A stretch of 16,820 bases of DNA from an uncultured Eubacterium sp. (GTDB taxonomy: Bacteria; Bacillota; Clostridia; Lachnospirales; Lachnospiraceae): the NCBI GenBank assembly GCA_905236295.1, contig CAJOQF010000133.1, positions 1 through 16,820 on the forward strand. Reading direction: 5' to 3'. Shown piece after piece: positions 3,999 through 14,784 of this stretch; within the stretch, counting starts at the first letter, position 1, and each line of letters opens with the position of its first letter. The notes beneath the pieces were generated by a model. The model was given only the letters and a program-made list of their open reading frames with translations, ran no database searches and was not told the DNA's origin. A program made the translations under genes and the position numbers.

Positions 3999-4592
3999 AT
4001 GGAAGATCTGAGATTTGCCGAGGTTACGCGAAAGACAAATGAGACAGACATCTCCATGACGCTCAAGCTTTTCGGTCACGGTGACAACAAGATAGATACA
4101 GGGATCGGATTTTTTGATCATATGCTTGACGGATTCGCCAGACATGGATTTTTTGACCTTGAGGTAAGTTGCAAGGGCGATTTAAACGTCGATACACATC
4201 ACAGTGTTGAGGATGTCGGAATTGTACTCGGATGCGCAATCAGCAGAGCGATCGACGACAAGAAGGGGATTAAGAGATACGGAAGCAGCATTATACCGAT
4301 GGATGAGACTCTGGTTTTGTGCTCGCTAGACCTTTGCGGCAGACCGTATTTCGGATTCGAGGCAGAATTTGCGACGGACAGAGTCGGTGATTTTGAGACA
4401 CAGACCGCGAGAGAGTTTTTTGCTGCGGTTGCAAACAACGCCGGCATGAATCTACATATAAAAGTACTTGACGGAATAAATGATCATCATAAAATAGAAG
4501 CTATGTTTAAAGTATTTGGAAGAGCGCTTGATGAAGCGACCACTTTTGACGACAGGATCATAGGGGCACTGTCCACAAAAGGAAATCTTTGA
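3999..4592 (+). CDS. hisB: Imidazoleglycerol-phosphate dehydratase
   Basis: This 197-residue monofunctional enzyme dehydrates imidazoleglycerol phosphate to imidazoleacetol phosphate. The manganese-binding His/Glu pairs are all visible: H41 in [21 protein letters not shown] (H67, H68, E71), and [17 protein letters not shown] (H163, H164, E167). The region [18 protein letters not shown] also fits. No phosphatase domain is attached, unlike the enterobacterial HisB. ATG 3999 is preferred because GAGGAGG precedes it at normal distance; an earlier in-frame ATG at 3933 would bury 66 bases in hisD and lacks family similarity. The stop codon sits inside the ribosome site of the next gene. Confidence 0.96.
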
Positions 4593-4606
4593 GGAGGAAG
4601 TTTTAC

Positions 4607-5887
4607 ATGGATAAGAAATTATTGACTGCCATTTTGTATTTGAAGGATGGCAACGCGGTAAAGAGTGCTGAAGACCACGAGGTAGTCGGCGATATATTGG
4701 AAATGTCATCACTCTACAGTGACAGCGGAATTGACAGGATCATTGTCTTTGATCTTTCCGAGGCTGATGTTGAGCATGAAAAAAATATTCATGTTCTCAA
4801 AGAGATCAATCGAATCGTTGAGATCCCGGTTGTTGCCGGAGGAAATATCAATCGACTTGAGGATATCAAAAAACTGCTTTACGCCGGATGTCGTCAGGTT
4901 ATCATCAACGCTTCGAAGCAGGGAGTGTTCGAACTTACAAAAGAGGGCATGGATAGATTCGGAAAAGACAAACTTATTCTTTCTCTTGTCAACGCTGACG
5001 TTCTCTTTAAGAATAAGGGAATTACAGATTTTGTCGATGAAGTGCTCGTTCTCAATGAGGAGAGTGCCAATTCATACGACGATATGTATGACAGCGAGTA
5101 CACTGTTTATGTTGGCGAATACAATTTTGATCGCTGTGTTGAGCTGTTAAACAGGGAAAAAGTAAACGGTATAGTCGGTGATTTCTTAAGCGATATTCAC
5201 ACCGACATCATGAAGCTCAAGAACAAATTTATCGATGCCGGAATCATGATGTCAAGGCTTGAGACAAACCTTAAGTGGAGCGATTTCAAGCTCAACTCCG
5301 ACGGGCTTATTCCCGTAATCGTTCAGGACTACAGAACATACGAAGTCTTGATGCTTGCGTATATGAATGAAGAGGCGTTTGAGACCACCTTGAAACTCGG
5401 CAAGATGACATACTATTCAAGAAGCAGAAAAGAGCTTTGGGTGAAGGGCATGACATCGGGTCACACACAGTACCTCAAATCCCTCACGCTCGATTGCGAT
5501 AACGATACCATACTGGCAAAGGTTTCGCAGGTCGACGGAATCGCATGTCATACCGGCGCCAGATCATGCTTCTTTAATGAGCTGGTTAAAAAGGATTATG
5601 TAGAAAAGAATCCTCTGACGGTATTTGAGAATGTATATAATGTTATCGTTGACAGAAAAGAAAATCCAAAGAAGGGATCGTACACCAACTATCTCTTTGA
5701 CAAGGGGCTTGATAAGATCCTCAAAAAACTTGGCGAGGAGGCAACGGAGATTGTCATTGCAGCCAAGAATCCCGATCAGGAGGAGATAAAATACGAGATC
5801 TGCGATTTCCTCTACCATGCTATGGTTCTTATGGTTGAGAAGGATGTGACCTGGGAGGATATCGCTCAGGAGTTGTCGCTCAGATGA
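4607..5887 (+). CDS. hisIE: HisIE bifunctional enzyme with a HisF-like N-terminal domain
   Basis: The 426-residue protein has three parts. Residues about 222-325 are HisI (phosphoribosyl-AMP cyclohydrolase): [32 protein letters not shown], metal ligands D296/D298/D300 in LDCDND, and C314/C321 in ACHTGARSC. Residues about 338-426 are HisE (phosphoribosyl-ATP diphosphatase): [12 protein letters not shown] and [15 protein letters not shown]. Residues 1-220 resemble a HisF/HisA barrel ([43 protein letters not shown]). However, the catalytic Asp of HisF strand 1 (D11 in Thermotoga HisF) is Tyr11, and the second (D130) is Asn129 in LSLVNAD. The N-domain is therefore probably not a working synthase and may be structural or regulatory. 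ATG 4607 has GAGGAGG at 4591-4597. It catalyses steps 2 and 3 of the pathway. Confidence 0.92.
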
Positions 5888-10442: not shown

Positions 10443-12206
10443 ATGAAAAGGATGTGGTTAACAGTGGCTAATGTGATGGACTTGATAAATGAGAATGTAT
10501 TTGGAGTTTGGTTTTTGGTTGGCGCCGCTCTGGTGTTTTGGATGCAGGCGGGATTTGCGATGGTAGAGGCAGGATTTACCAGAGCTAAAAATGCCGGTAA
10601 CATAATTATGAAAAATCTCATGGATTTTTGTATAGGTGCCGTGATGTTTATCCTCATAGGATTTTCGCTTCTTCTCGGAGAAGATGTGATAGGACTGATC
10701 GGTCAGCCCGGATTTGACATATTTTCATCTTACGGATCATTTGACTGGTCGGCATTTGTATTTAATCTTGTGTTCTGCGCAACGACTTCTACGATCGTCA
10801 GCGGTGCTCTCGCAGAGAGAACAAAGTTCTTATCATACTGTATCTATTCGGCAGTGATATCCGGACTTATTTATCCGATAGAGGCTCACTGGATCTGGGG
10901 AGGCGGATGGCTCTCAGATATGGGATTCCACGATTTTGCGGGATCAGCGGCAATTCATATGGTTGGAGGTCTCTGTGCACTTATCGGTGCCAAGATGCTC
11001 GGAGCAAGAATTGGAAAGTTTAAGAGAGATAAGGATAAGAAAGTTGTAAAGGTTAACGCTATTCCGGGTCACAGTATTCCACTCGGAGCATTGGGATGTT
11101 TTATCCTCTGGTTTGGATGGTATGGATTCAACGGTGCGGCAGCAACTTCAGTTGATCAGTTGTCATCAATCTTCCTTACCACGACGATAGCACCGGCAGT
11201 TGCAACCGTTGTCACGATGATATTTACCTGGTTAAAATGGGGTAAGCCCGATGTTTCAATGTGTCTGAACGCATCCCTTGCCGGTTTGGTTGCCATAACC
11301 GCCCCGTGTGATGTGGTTGACGGTTTCGGGGCAACTATAATAGGACTTGTTTCCGGATTATTGGTAGTATTTGGAGTTTACCTTCTCGATCACAAGCTTC
11401 ACATTGACGATCCGGTCGGTGCGGTAGCGGTTCATTTCTTTAACGGATTATGGGGAACGATAGCAACTGGACTCTTTGCGACAAAAACGGCTCCGGGAAG
11501 CGAGGTTGCAGGTCTTTTCTATGGCGGTGGTTTCAGACAGCTTGGTGTTCAGCTTTTAGGTATTGTAGCGGTATGTGCATTTGCGGCAGTTACTATAACG
11601 ATCACATTTGCAGTGATCAAGGCTACTATCGGACTCAGATGCAGCGCCGAGGAGGAGATCAACGGACTCGACACATCTGAGCATGGACTTCCGAGCGCAT
11701 ACGCTGATTTTGCACTCGCTTCAAGCATCAACAACTTCTCATCTGATGAGGAGACAGACAAATTGCCTGAAAACGCAGTGCCTATTGATGAGGCGGTTCC
11801 GATACAGATAACTTCGGCTCCGAAGAACAGCGCACCGCAGAGCGTCATAGCCTCAGATACATCATTTACGCAGATTACGATCATAGCCAGACAGAACAAG
11901 TTTGATGAACTTAAAGAGGCGATGAACAAGATAGGCGTAATGGGAATGACGGTCACAAATGTTCTCGGTTGCGGAACACAGAAGGGGCGTCCCGAGTTCT
12001 ATCGTGGAGTTTCCATGGAAGTTATGCTTCTTCCGAGAATCCAGATAGATATCGTTGTTGCAAAGGTAAGTCCTAAGCTTGTTATAGAGACGGCAAGAAA
12101 GGTACTCTACACCGGAAACTTCGGAGACGGAAAGATCTTTATATATCATGTTGATCAGGTTGTCCGCGTTCGTACAGGCGAAGCAGGATTTGCAGCAATA
12201 CAGTAA
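10443..12206 (+). CDS. amt: Ammonium transporter fused to a PII signalling domain
   Basis: The 587-residue protein joins an Amt/Rh ammonium channel (about 1-425) to a full PII domain (about 474-587). Channel marks: MQAGFAMVEAGFTRAKN, D164, the conducting twin histidines H172 in AAIHMVGG and H331 in VAVHFFNGLWG, and the cytoplasmic tail motif EEEINGLDTSEHGLPSAYADF. About eleven hydrophobic segments are visible. A loose acidic and Pro/Ser-rich linker, about 430-472, follows. The PII part shows FDELKEAMNKIGVMGMTVTNV, a T-loop with GRPEFYRG (Y520 at the place of the uridylylated Tyr51 of GlnB), GDGKIFIYHV and VVRVRTGE. PII normally blocks Amt as a separate trimer; here the block is built in. ATG 10443 has only a weak GGA; GTG 10464 (after AAAAGGA) and ATG 10476 are alternatives, and the family's conserved part begins near 10494. 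Confidence 0.95.
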   Translation: MKRMWLTVANVMDLINENVFGVWFLVGAALVFWMQAGFAMVEAGFTRAKNAGNIIMKNLMDFCIGAVMFILIGFSLLLGEDVIGLIGQPGFDIFSSYGSFDWSAFVFNLVFCATTSTIVSGALAERTKFLSYCIYSAVISGLIYPIEAHWIWGGGWLSDMGFHDFAGSAAIHMVGGLCALIGAKMLGARIGKFKRDKDKKVVKVNAIPGHSIPLGALGCFILWFGWYGFNGAAATSVDQLSSIFLTTTIAPAVATVVTMIFTWLKWGKPDVSMCLNASLAGLVAITAPCDVVDGFGATIIGLVSGLLVVFGVYLLDHKLHIDDPVGAVAVHFFNGLWGTIATGLFATKTAPGSEVAGLFYGGGFRQLGVQLLGIVAVCAFAAVTITITFAVIKATIGLRCSAEEEINGLDTSEHGLPSAYADFALASSINNFSSDEETDKLPENAVPIDEAVPIQITSAPKNSAPQSVIASDTSFTQITIIARQNKFDELKEAMNKIGVMGMTVTNVLGCGTQKGRPEFYRGVSMEVMLLPRIQIDIVVAKVSPKLVIETARKVLYTGNFGDGKIFIYHVDQVVRVRTGEAGFAAIQ

Positions 12207-12250: not shown

Positions 12251-13276
12251 ATGAATGAGAATTTGACTGTTGCCATGGCTCCCTTAGAGGGGATCACTAC
12301 GGCGGTATTTAGAAAAGTATATAGGAAATATTATACAGGGGTGGATTTATTTTACACCCCTTTTCTTTCTGCAAATCACACTCATAAGTTCAAGAAAAGA
12401 GAGAAGAGGGAGTATCTTCCGTTTGACGATACTCTTATTCCGCAGCTTATCACGAACTCCCCGGATGATTTTTTGTGGGCGGCAAGAGTGCTGACTGAGG
12501 TTGGCTATAAGGAGATAAACTTAAATGCCGGCTGTCCTTCAAGCACTGTCTTTTCTAAGCGAAAAGGGGCGGGGATGCTCTTTGATACCGATGAACTCGA
12601 GCGCTTTTTTTCCGCGGTTTTTGAAGTGAAGGAAAAAGAAGATCTTGCTGAAGTTTCCGTAAAGACAAGGATAGGAGTGCATGATGCTTCCGAAGCGGAG
12701 GATATCGCAAAAGTATATTCGGCGTTTCCTTTTAAGGAAGTGATCATCCATCCGAGACTTAGGGTGGATTATTACAGGAATGATGTAGATCTTGGAGCGT
12801 TTAAACTTATGCGCGATATTATTACCCCGCCGGTGGCTTCGACAAGCTCAGCCACCGAGGCACCGGTCCCTGAGCTTGTCGAAGGGACATCCGTCGAAAC
12901 CACTCGCACTCTGATAATGTACAACGGCGATATCTGCTCTGTAGATGATGTTAAAGCTTTGCAAAAGCAAATTCCGGGAACAGACCGCATAATGATCGGA
13001 AGAGGTCTTTTAAAAAATCCTGCTCTTCCGCGGATGTTAAAGGGTGGTGAAGGCTTAAAAATCGAAGAACTAAAAGCCTTCCATTATGATCTGTATGCGG
13101 CGTACAAAGAAGAACTTGTAAATGACCGCGACATACTGTTTAAGATGAAGGAACTCTGGGGATACTGGGCAACCCTTTTTTCTGAGAACGATCGTCAGCT
13201 AAAGGCTATTCGAAAGACCAAAAATCCAAATGAGTATCACGCAGCGGTAGAGACGATATTTACTACAGTGTGCTGA
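12251..13276 (+). CDS. dus: tRNA-dihydrouridine synthase with an in-frame repeat insertion
   Basis: The 341-residue flavoprotein reduces uridine to dihydrouridine in tRNA. It shows the Dus pattern: MAPLEGITTAVFRKV at the FMN site, EINLNAGCPS with catalytic C95, VKTRIG (K138), VIIHPR (H167), YNGDICS (225-230) and IMIGRGLLKNP. The stretch of about residues 193-220, between the helix LMRDIIT and the strand LIMYNGDI, is not expected in the family. It reads PPVASTSSATEAPV and continues to TSVETTRT, and is coded by a palindromic repeat (separate entry). The rest of the fold appears intact, so the protein is probably active. ATG 12251 is the only start that keeps the FMN-site motif, and it has no ribosome site. 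It faces the convergent glycosylase gene 35 bases downstream. The Dus subtype is not clear. Confidence 0.9.
   Translation: MNENLTVAMAPLEGITTAVFRKVYRKYYTGVDLFYTPFLSANHTHKFKKREKREYLPFDDTLIPQLITNSPDDFLWAARVLTEVGYKEINLNAGCPSSTVFSKRKGAGMLFDTDELERFFSAVFEVKEKEDLAEVSVKTRIGVHDASEAEDIAKVYSAFPFKEVIIHPRLRVDYYRNDVDLGAFKLMRDIITPPVASTSSATEAPVPELVEGTSVETTRTLIMYNGDICSVDDVKALQKQIPGTDRIMIGRGLLKNPALPRMLKGGEGLKIEELKAFHYDLYAAYKEELVNDRDILFKMKELWGYWATLFSENDRQLKAIRKTKNPNEYHAAVETIFTTVC
12832..12888. repeat. Palindromic double-hairpin repeat inside dus
   Basis: Two small inverted repeats stand head to head. The first has arms GGTGGC and GCCACC (12832-12837, 12851-12856) around TTCGACAAGCTCA. The second has arms GTCCC and GGGAC (12866-12870, 12884-12888) around TGAGCTTGTCGAA. 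The two loops are exact reverse complements of each other, while the stems differ in sequence but keep their pairing. The 57 bases equal 19 codons without a stop. The core CTGAGCTTGTCGAA is one I recall in dispersed short repeats of unrelated bacteria; this is memory, not checked. Confidence 0.85.
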
Positions 13277-13286
13277 TGCAGTGTTA

Positions 13287-13312
13287 AGCCACGTAATTAT
13301 TGTTTCGTGGTT
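13287..13312. terminator. Weak hairpin between convergent genes
   Basis: AGCCACG (13287-13293) can pair with CGTGGTT (13306-13312), with one G-U pair, around a 12-base AT-rich loop. It lies between the stops of dus and of the minus-strand gene and touches the latter. No T-run follows on either strand, so a bidirectional terminator role is only possible. Confidence 0.3.
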
Positions 13313-14784
13313 CAATTGGCAGTCAGAACTTTATTGATAGTGTTTAATACATTTTTCTTGTCTGCGCTCCAAAGGGGAGCGATCAGGTCTTTTTTGTTTC
13401 CGTCACCTGTGAATCTGTGAACGACCAGATCCGGCGGTAAGCAGGCAAAAAGCTCACATATCAGATCAGCATATTCATTAAGACTCATTTGATCAAATGG
13501 GTTTTTTTTGTATTCGTCTGCAAGCCTTGTATTTCTTAATACGTGAAGCATGGAGAGTTTGATACCGTTAGAACCCGAATCTATCACATGAGTAAGTGTC
13601 TTTTTCATCATGGCCCGTGTTTCGCCCGGAAGTCCAAGGATAACATGGGTTATTATCTGTGATATTCCGATTTTTCTTAAACGGGTGAGTGCCTCATTGT
13701 ATGTTTTGAGCTCAAAACATCGGTTAATGAATTCCGCTGACTTTTTTGAAACGGTCTGCAATCCAAGTTCGATCCATACCGGTTTTTTGCTATTGATCTC
13801 CGATATAAGCTCCAATACATCATCCCCAAGGCAGTCCGGTCGGGTGGCTATGGACAGGACATCGATCTCGGGAGCGTTTATTGCTTCCGTATATAATCGT
13901 TTTAGTCTGTCGATCGTATCATAAGTTCCTGTAAAAGCCTGGAAATACGCGATAAATCCTACTTCCTTAGTCTTTGGAAGTTTATTTTTTAGTATCTCCT
14001 TTTGCGCTTTGATCTGATCGGCTACGGTGGCTGTATTTTTCATGTGTCCGGTGGTTTTGCTTGTCGTATACTCGGTGGTTTTGCATGTCGAAGCCACATT
14101 TATTTTCCCGGCAAAATCCCCGCTGCCTCCCGCGCTACAGAATATACAACCGTCACTGCTCAGGGTTCCATCCCTGTTTGGGCATGTAAACCCTCCATCC
14201 AGGGACAATCTGTAGAGCTTCTTGTTATAATTATCCGCAGCATAGTCATTCAGTGAATAGTAGGGTTTGTTAAGATCATTTCGGTTTAATCCTATAAGTA
14301 TCCTTCTGTAAGCATTGGTCAGGTCTGTAACTGACCATGCGGCGTTAGCCGGGCTGGTCGAAGGAAGTGGAATGGCATTCGGGTTTATTATTTCTCCTGT
14401 TTTCAGTGACGTTTTTATATATTTGTTGTATAATGTATATGACTTGTTTCCGTTGCAGTAGATCGCGGAAATATTAGACTCTTTTATCAGTGGGATCAGG
14501 TCGTTCGGAGTGACGTTTTCTATACTTGAGTCGGATGATCCGACAATGTCACAAGAGTGTATCACATCCCACAGAGCTATATTATGCGAGAGGAGAAGCG
14601 ATTTTTTCTCATCTATTGTTTCAGGAATTCTCTCGTTAAACACACCTGCAACTACTTCCCAGAATCTGTTCTGTGGATGTCCGTAAAAAAAAGACGCTTC
14701 GCGAGATTTTACTGACGGAAACGAACCTAAGATCAAAATTTTAGAGTTTTTATCATATACCGGTTTTATCGGATGTACTATCAT
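13312..14784 (-). CDS. Fusion of DNA glycosylase (UDG family 6-like) and TIGR01212 radical SAM protein
   Basis: One uninterrupted 490-residue frame holds two enzymes. Residues about 1-165 match the DNA-deoxyinosine/uracil glycosylase family: KILILGSFPSVKSREASFFY, then YGHPQNRFW (N39), LWDVIHSCD, and PSTSPANAAWS (142-151). Residues about 175-490 match TIGR01212/YhcC radical SAM proteins: YYSLNDYAADNYNKKLYRLS, then FTCPNRDGT and GCIFC, giving C201-x11-C213-x2-C216. Further on are AYFQAFTGTYD, SIATRPDC, ELGLQT and HVILGLPGETR. The glycosylase would remove deaminated bases; the substrate of the radical SAM part is unknown. Residues about 229-252 (VASTCKTTEYTTSKTTGH and following) are an extra repeat-coded insertion after GSGDFAG. 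No ribosome site precedes ATG 14784, but a -10 box lies six bases upstream. It is divergent from the secreted protein gene. Confidence 0.88.
   Translation of the reverse strand: MIVHPIKPVYDKNSKILILGSFPSVKSREASFFYGHPQNRFWEVVAGVFNERIPETIDEKKSLLLSHNIALWDVIHSCDIVGSSDSSIENVTPNDLIPLIKESNISAIYCNGNKSYTLYNKYIKTSLKTGEIINPNAIPLPSTSPANAAWSVTDLTNAYRRILIGLNRNDLNKPYYSLNDYAADNYNKKLYRLSLDGGFTCPNRDGTLSSDGCIFCSAGGSGDFAGKINVASTCKTTEYTTSKTTGHMKNTATVADQIKAQKEILKNKLPKTKEVGFIAYFQAFTGTYDTIDRLKRLYTEAINAPEIDVLSIATRPDCLGDDVLELISEINSKKPVWIELGLQTVSKKSAEFINRCFELKTYNEALTRLRKIGISQIITHVILGLPGETRAMMKKTLTHVIDSGSNGIKLSMLHVLRNTRLADEYKKNPFDQMSLNEYADLICELFACLPPDLVVHRFTGDGNKKDLIAPLWSADKKNVLNTINKVLTAN
14026..14097. repeat. Three 24-bp GGTGG units inside the glycosylase/radical SAM gene
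   Basis: GGTGG recurs at 14026, 14050 and 14074, exactly 24 bases (8 codons) apart. The units at 14050 and 14074 match at 19 of 24 positions; the first is degenerate. The unit at 14074 is also an imperfect inverted repeat, GTGGTTT against AAGCCAC. Read on the coding (minus) strand, 14071-14097 matches the dus repeat at 23 of 27 bases. It codes VASTCKTTE where dus has VASTSSATE, in the same reading frame. Confidence 0.8.

Follow-up and report, generated by a model that had tools for sequence, protein, structure and literature searches.

Why do two unrelated genes that converge on each other carry the same short sequence in the same reading frame? Within the window, the 16,820-nt stretch of an uncultured Eubacterium sp. 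contig analysed here, a radical SAM gene and a tRNA-dihydrouridine synthase gene (dus) have the 12-base sequence GTGGCTTCGACA in common, which in the radical SAM gene occupies positions 14097-14086 of the minus strand, the strand that codes for this protein. Over a 27-bp unit (14097-14071 against dus 12833-12859) 23 of 27 bases match in the same frame, giving the peptides VASTCKTTE and VASTSSATE, respectively. The genes are convergent and the arms are 1211 nt apart. These observations of the initial annotation were all reproduced. It had described a single dus copy, in the frame seen in the radical SAM gene; this copy is present, but dus actually holds two opposed copies, the second of which is in the other of two favoured frames. 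The features are as follows.

12251..13276, + strand: tRNA-dihydrouridine synthase family gene (dus; PF01207, E 6.9e-34)
12815..12904, + strand: extra stretch in dus (residues 189-218), net 22 residues above the nearest homologues
12830..12862, + strand: copy of the REP-like element in dus, read in frame +0 (VASTSSATE), 34.0 bits, exact GCTTCGACAAGCTCAG
12859..12891, - strand: inverted second copy of the REP-like element in dus, read in frame -1 (PVPELVEGT), 41.0 bits with all six pairs of the stem
13312..14784, - strand: DNA-deoxyinosine glycosylase fused to MnmL/YtqA radical SAM protein (TIGR04274 and TIGR01212)
14023..14094, - strand: tandem units U1 (14094-14071), U2 (14070-14047) and U3 (14046-14023), the third weak
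14029..14094, - strand: insert of 22 codons (66 bp; residues 231-252, boundaries set by the alignment) in the fusion gene
14068..14100, - strand: probable degenerate REP-like copy, frame +0 (VASTCKTTE), 18.1 bits

In the fusion protein, TIGR04274 covers residues 5-153 and TIGR01212 residues 174-487, both above cut-off; MnmL/YtqA (TIGR01212) is a tRNA-modification radical SAM protein. Of the homologues aligned (P0002-P0037, 36 in all), 34 have the full set of three Pfam domains and the remaining two look like fragments; several relatives encode the glycosylase and MnmL/YtqA halves separately. Other fusions in the window are a HisF-like region joined to PRA-CH (HisI) and PRA-PH (HisE) domains (4589-5887, + strand), where the PF00977 match is limited to profile positions 6-128 of 228, and an ammonium transporter joined to a P-II domain (10443-12206, + strand).

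The orthologue of the congener G001 aligns with residues 2-230 and 253-486 of the fusion protein on directly adjoining DNA, so 22 residues are extra here. The stretch concerned measures 58 residues, versus 36 in P0002, P0003, P0004 and P0036. It follows the radical SAM cysteines, and in the 36 homologues aligned out of 120 listed its length varies between 27 and 103 residues and its fillings are unrelated. Long unrelated fillings of this loop are found in P0037 and in P0014, the latter with SVEQPSEEQP-like repeats of its own, and insertions of differing origin seem to accumulate at this site. The extra dus stretch is 90 nt long here versus 24 nt in G001, and 61 residues versus 39 in P0123, P0124 and P0125; across 37 aligned homologues (of 120 listed, the 99% identical P0122 being omitted) it ranges from 34 to 64 residues. 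The comparison with orthologues suggested in the initial annotation shows that the nearest homologues of either protein lack the insert. Distant orthologues with the same residues, which would have spoken against a repeat, did not turn up at the loop concerned in any of the 36 aligned radical SAM or 37 aligned Dus sequences. The inserts had also been proposed to form surface linkers. The AlphaFold2 models predict low-confidence coil at both, with residues 221-248 as the sole segment of the radical SAM protein with pLDDT below 50 and Dus residues 191-220 as coil between a helix and a strand (block means 60-76; model mean 93.5), values that are low in part because few relatives align there. The radical SAM insert is accordingly predicted to be disordered, within a loop of variable length.

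The shared sequence belongs to a family of hairpin repeats with the consensus gtNNcTTCGACARGCTCAgNNacCGG, copies of which are present in both genes. In the genome assembly (2.14 Mb, 387 contigs, 79.9% complete), GCTTCGACAAGCTCAG was found 41 times at up to 2 mismatches, versus 0 times for the reversed control. Among the aligned copies the loop TTCGACARGCTCA is constant, and the arms vary yet remain complementary. Stem cells are paired in 82.9% of cases versus 70.3% in shuffles. Double-change stem cells number 37, against 16.7 ± 3.0 in shuffles and no more than 14 when the controls are slid. Of the five measures, two were unremarkable, namely both-side-changed pairs (193 of 500 shuffles as high) and further pair types (38 of 500). 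A covariance model (33 nt, 6-bp stem, 11-nt loop) was built from 38 copies, which are the 41 without the two window copies and a further copy at the edge of a contig. It has at least 79 genome matches at E ≤ 1 and at least 54 at E ≤ 0.01, the latter a lower bound because 150 of 754 first-look candidates were scored. The genome search, the covarying stem and the model together establish the repeat family that the initial annotation had surmised.

At 25 bits or more there are 58 copies, 31 of them coding and 27 outside coding sequence. Some form arrays: an FtsK-like gene has four copies at 45 bp spacing and grpE has three at 42 bp. The four copies in the FtsK-like linker (L115, G000:C179:3587-3754; L133, G000:C303:22-54) encode 15-residue repeats of the ETYVEPEPPVSEPVE type, and contigs C179 and C303 may be the two ends of one gene. 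In the window, the model gives 41 and 34 bits to the two copies in dus and 18.1 to that in the radical SAM gene; the next-best match, at 4904-4936 with 14.3 bits, was taken as chance. An Rfam search of the window gave nothing at gathering scores.

That the radical SAM and dus copies have one frame in common would alone prove little. Frames were therefore tabulated genome-wide, as the initial annotation had proposed. A copy was called coding if it is read through by an ORF that is at least 100 aa long and that, beyond the element, reaches a codon score of 20 bits or more, the score being trained on 11 window stretches; the contig-edge copy on C285 was dropped from the model and the frame test. 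By this definition 47 of the 79 copies are read through by a coding ORF and 32 are not. Down to 18 bits, the 47 coding copies are distributed as 27 in frame -1, 17 in +0, 2 in -0 and 1 in +1. Among coding copies of at least 25 bits, all 31 are in two frames, either -1 (22) or +0 (9). Frames -1 and +0 are stop-free in all 31, +2 in 29, -0 in 26, +1 in 24 and -2 in 3; if open frames were equally likely, 13.7 of 31 would be expected in -1 or +0 (tail 6.6e-12). The result holds when one copy is taken per gene, with 22 of 22 genes versus 9.7 expected at 25 bits or more (1.2e-8) and 27 of 29 versus 12.5 expected at 18 bits or more (1.3e-8). For these counts 24 ORFs were merged into 22 genes (copies of at least 25 bits) by joining the C70 ORFs, two C80 ORFs representing fragments of a single gene, and contigs C179 and C303 with the FtsK-like gene. 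With coding signal on both flanks, 23 of 23 copies at 25 bits or more and 33 of 35 over all scores are in the two frames. An even spread over six frames, which had been named as the outcome that would count against the proposal, is thus not seen.

The frame rule as an artefact of the ORF method was considered and rejected, as the same method gave spread frames on 44 copies from Sphingomonadaceae-type genomes. That sample comprises 36 stretches of two genomes, mostly chosen for unpaired copies, and 15 of its 44 copies lie in ORFs (frames -1 5, +1 3, +2 3, +0 2, -0 2). Coding signal on both sides is present for 3 of the 15 (frames -1, +1 and -1) and on one side for the other 12, so the sample neither confirms nor denies a two-frame rule in those genomes.

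The peptide encoded in frame -1 is AEPVEA-like and that in frame +0 is ASTGSA-like; in the window, the radical SAM copy and the left dus copy use +0 and the right dus copy uses -1. The initial annotation had offered two reasons for in-frame retention, a harmless linker or a preferred insertion register. The two-frame restriction supports retention as such and leaves the choice between them, in which we favour selection on the peptide as the simplest account. The register explanation, a short target of fixed codon phase that would yield one frame per orientation without any peptide selection, is unlikely, although it too predicts what the strong copies display, exactly one frame per orientation (-1 and +0). 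It would demand a target of almost invariant codon phase in 22 genes, and no conserved flank beyond the element is visible by eye. The peptides themselves also weigh against it: for two stem versions, the favoured frames have a net charge of 0 to -3, and the other frames are closed by stops except in 4 cases, of which 3 give a net-positive peptide and one a neutral peptide (HFDRLSDR). By mean Kyte-Doolittle hydropathy the favoured-frame peptides are no more hydrophilic than the rejected ones, a point on the side of the register. Changes in the core at codon positions 1, 2 and 3 number 4, 9 and 12 in the 27 frame -1 copies, versus 14, 13 and 16 at the same positions in the 32 non-coding copies; for the 16 frame +0 copies they number 9, 9 and 9, versus 13, 14 and 16. 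These counts are suggestive at most.

Conserved proteins are the usual hosts. A Pfam match at E ≤ 0.001 was obtained for 23 of the 24 ORFs with copies of at least 25 bits (one below the curated cut-off), including Rnf-Nqr, CysRS, bacterial topoisomerase, GrpE, FtsH, NAD-dependent DNA ligase, CobQ-like, FtsJ-like, HisRS-like and FtsK proteins, short names that we take to correspond to the Pfam titles. In raw counts of the 31 coding copies at this score, the best Pfam stretch contains 6 and excludes 24, and the remaining copy is in an ORF with no Pfam match. The copy sits between two domains in CysRS and the CobQ-like protein, before the domain in GrpE and after it in FtsH.

The radical SAM copy itself is far weaker than its dus counterparts. 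The radical SAM/dus match tops the list of inverted-repeat pairs in the window; alone it is weak evidence, because another pair (I2, 25 nt, 84%) ranks directly behind. With the model made without window copies, the 18.1 bits correspond to E 0.0076 over the window, 0.99 over the genome and 4.4e-5 over the 96 bases round the insert, a stretch picked because of the match. It is the lowest-scoring of the 79 genome-wide matches listed, a level at which about one chance match is expected. Chance alone was rejected as the origin of the 27-bp match, since separate evidence comes from the insert, from the 24-bp repeat and from the model of the family.

The initial annotation had counted three 24-bp tandem copies and proposed that the element duplicates locally. 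Only the first two units stand out clearly, with a weak third, since the identities are 18/24 for U1-U2, 15/24 for U2-U3 and 11/24 for U1-U3; the three-copy count therefore does not hold in full, and local duplication is supported for two units. All self-matches in the window of at least 18/24 at periods 12-60 (13 offsets) sit in the radical SAM insert at period 24. Tandem Repeats Finder did not list the 24-bp repeat of this gene.

The insert could instead have arisen when a variable loop expanded in tandem, unrelated to the element and resembling it by chance, a proposal compatible with the frame rule elsewhere. The genome-wide E of about 1 speaks for it, and the same loop has long unrelated fillings in other homologues, visibly repetitive in P0014. 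We nevertheless regard it as improbable. Two of the units each fit the GTGG-stem consensus at 18/24, and the GCAAA loop variant of this copy, CTTCGACANGCAAA, occurs exactly at 3 other genome sites (7 matches at up to 1 mismatch, versus 4 for the reversed control). The copy is also in the allowed frame +0, and 1.2 kb away there is an insert of equal net length that holds strong copies. We infer that the worn radical SAM copy belongs to the repeat family. That the inserts are kept because they are useful, in tuning or partner binding, is very improbable: both window genes and several other hosts do work on tRNA or core processes (CysRS, HisRS-like, FtsJ-like, FtsH, GrpE, FtsK), but the hosts are unrelated, placement varies, copies are degenerate and three congeners give no match. 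These explanations partly overlap and are not all mutually exclusive.

In-frame palindromic insertion is of a known kind; new are this family and its two-frame rule. A review describes 19 Rickettsia reading frames with palindromic elements (RPEs) and an active RPE-bearing guanylate kinase (PMC2229807). As in that description, a palindromic repeat lies here in frame within genes with conserved domains, and orthologues without the element exist for both the radical SAM gene and dus. The likeness is one of description; the model here measures 33 nt versus 105-146 bp for the RPEs of the review, and the element differs from them in its distant host and its two-frame rule. The rule was not found in the REP and RPE literature covered, the original RPE descriptions lying outside it.

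Di Nocera et al. (2013, PMC3733652) describe GTAG- and CGTC-tagged REPs as short multi-copy hairpins, some of them paired and others located within ORFs, among which are genes for tRNA synthetase, for tRNA pseudouridine synthase and for DNA ligase. According to the same source, REPs in ORFs are known from several phyla, and its authors suggest flexible linkers or loops. The present element resembles these REPs in being a short multi-copy hairpin, partly paired and partly within ORFs. In that account tagged REPs are mostly intergenic, versus 31 of 58 copies of at least 25 bits coding here. The element also differs from them in its constant loop and varying stem, and no unpaired GTAG or CGTC tag is found in columns 1-3 of alignment A1, where a frequent TGTC overlaps the stem. 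It is a short (20-40 nt) hairpin palindrome with many dispersed copies. We call it REP-like and not a REP because the definition as given in PMC12306157 is mainly extragenic, and 31 of the 58 copies are coding, 27 outside coding sequence.

A likeness in sequence exists to hairpins of Sphingomonadaceae-type genomes, which have the core CTTCGACARGCTCAG in common with the element and a complementary stem that varies. Among the matches listed, those copies form mostly inverted pairs about 40-60 nt apart, which we take to be REPIN-like. Their 3' flank is often AACGG, here CCGG, and in the sample their frames spread over five, versus two among the strong copies here. The exact core has 23 copies in the present genome and one each in 2 of 298 other genomes of the family, which is probably Lachnospiraceae to judge by the organisms named for similar proteins. 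It was found in 3 of 12 further genomes examined, all Sphingomonadaceae-type, with 84, 88 and 5 copies; the same 15-nt core accounts for the 84 and 88 exact copies of G330 and G332. In three congeners no match to the covariance model was obtained at E ≤ 0.01 among the best 150 of 338 to 588 candidates each.

No Y1 transposase (PF01797) was detected in the 79.9%-complete repeat-bearing genome or in G332 or G331. G330 has one PF01797 match, and the repeat core is absent from its 3.3-kb locus. The congeners G002 and G003, which lack the repeat, hold 6 and 2 Y1_Tnp matches. A plasmid search returned 4 records with a best E of 0.9. Exact 14-mers of the repeat gave nothing in the published literature, and 12-mers together with the peptides PELVEG and PEPVEA gave no paper on a bacterial repeat, judged by title. 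No literature was found on REPINs and RAYTs in Sphingomonas, and nothing relevant by title on REPs in Lachnospiraceae.

The reading we prefer, at a probability of roughly 0.75, is that a now worn REP-like hairpin was inserted into the radical SAM loop and duplicated by 24-bp steps, and that copies in genes are filtered for frame by selection on the peptide. A mobile hairpin-forming repeat would have entered a length-tolerant loop by transposition, perhaps through a Y1/RAYT-type enzyme (none found in this genome). Insertions would arrive in any frame. Within genes they would survive only in frames whose ASTGSA-like or AEPVEA-like product is flexible, is either neutral or acidic, and falls in a loop, a linker or a terminus; frames with stops or mostly basic peptides would be purged. 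The tandem step may reflect replication slippage in multiples of three. Points against this reading are the weakness of the radical SAM copy, the 3 of 47 coding copies in other frames, the hydropathy result and the +1 frame of one of the 3 copies from Sphingomonadaceae that have coding signal on either flank.

The family constitutes a natural experiment in turning selfish DNA into protein, with one short element, one genome and 22 genes holding strong copies, among which the frame rule is without exception. Two Sphingomonadaceae-type genomes hold its core in abundance, and a distant family in which it is otherwise almost absent has one species where it has expanded; this split distribution raises the question of its route of travel and its mover. 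It is conceivable, if rather unlikely, that the core is itself shaped to be translatable, with one harmless frame per orientation, which gives ASTGSA for one strand and AEPVEA for the opposite one. If so, it would be a gene-dwelling hairpin tolerable to its host, and its copies would form, in this lineage, a standing source of disordered linkers in proteins such as CysRS, FtsK, FtsH, GrpE and the CobQ-like protein.
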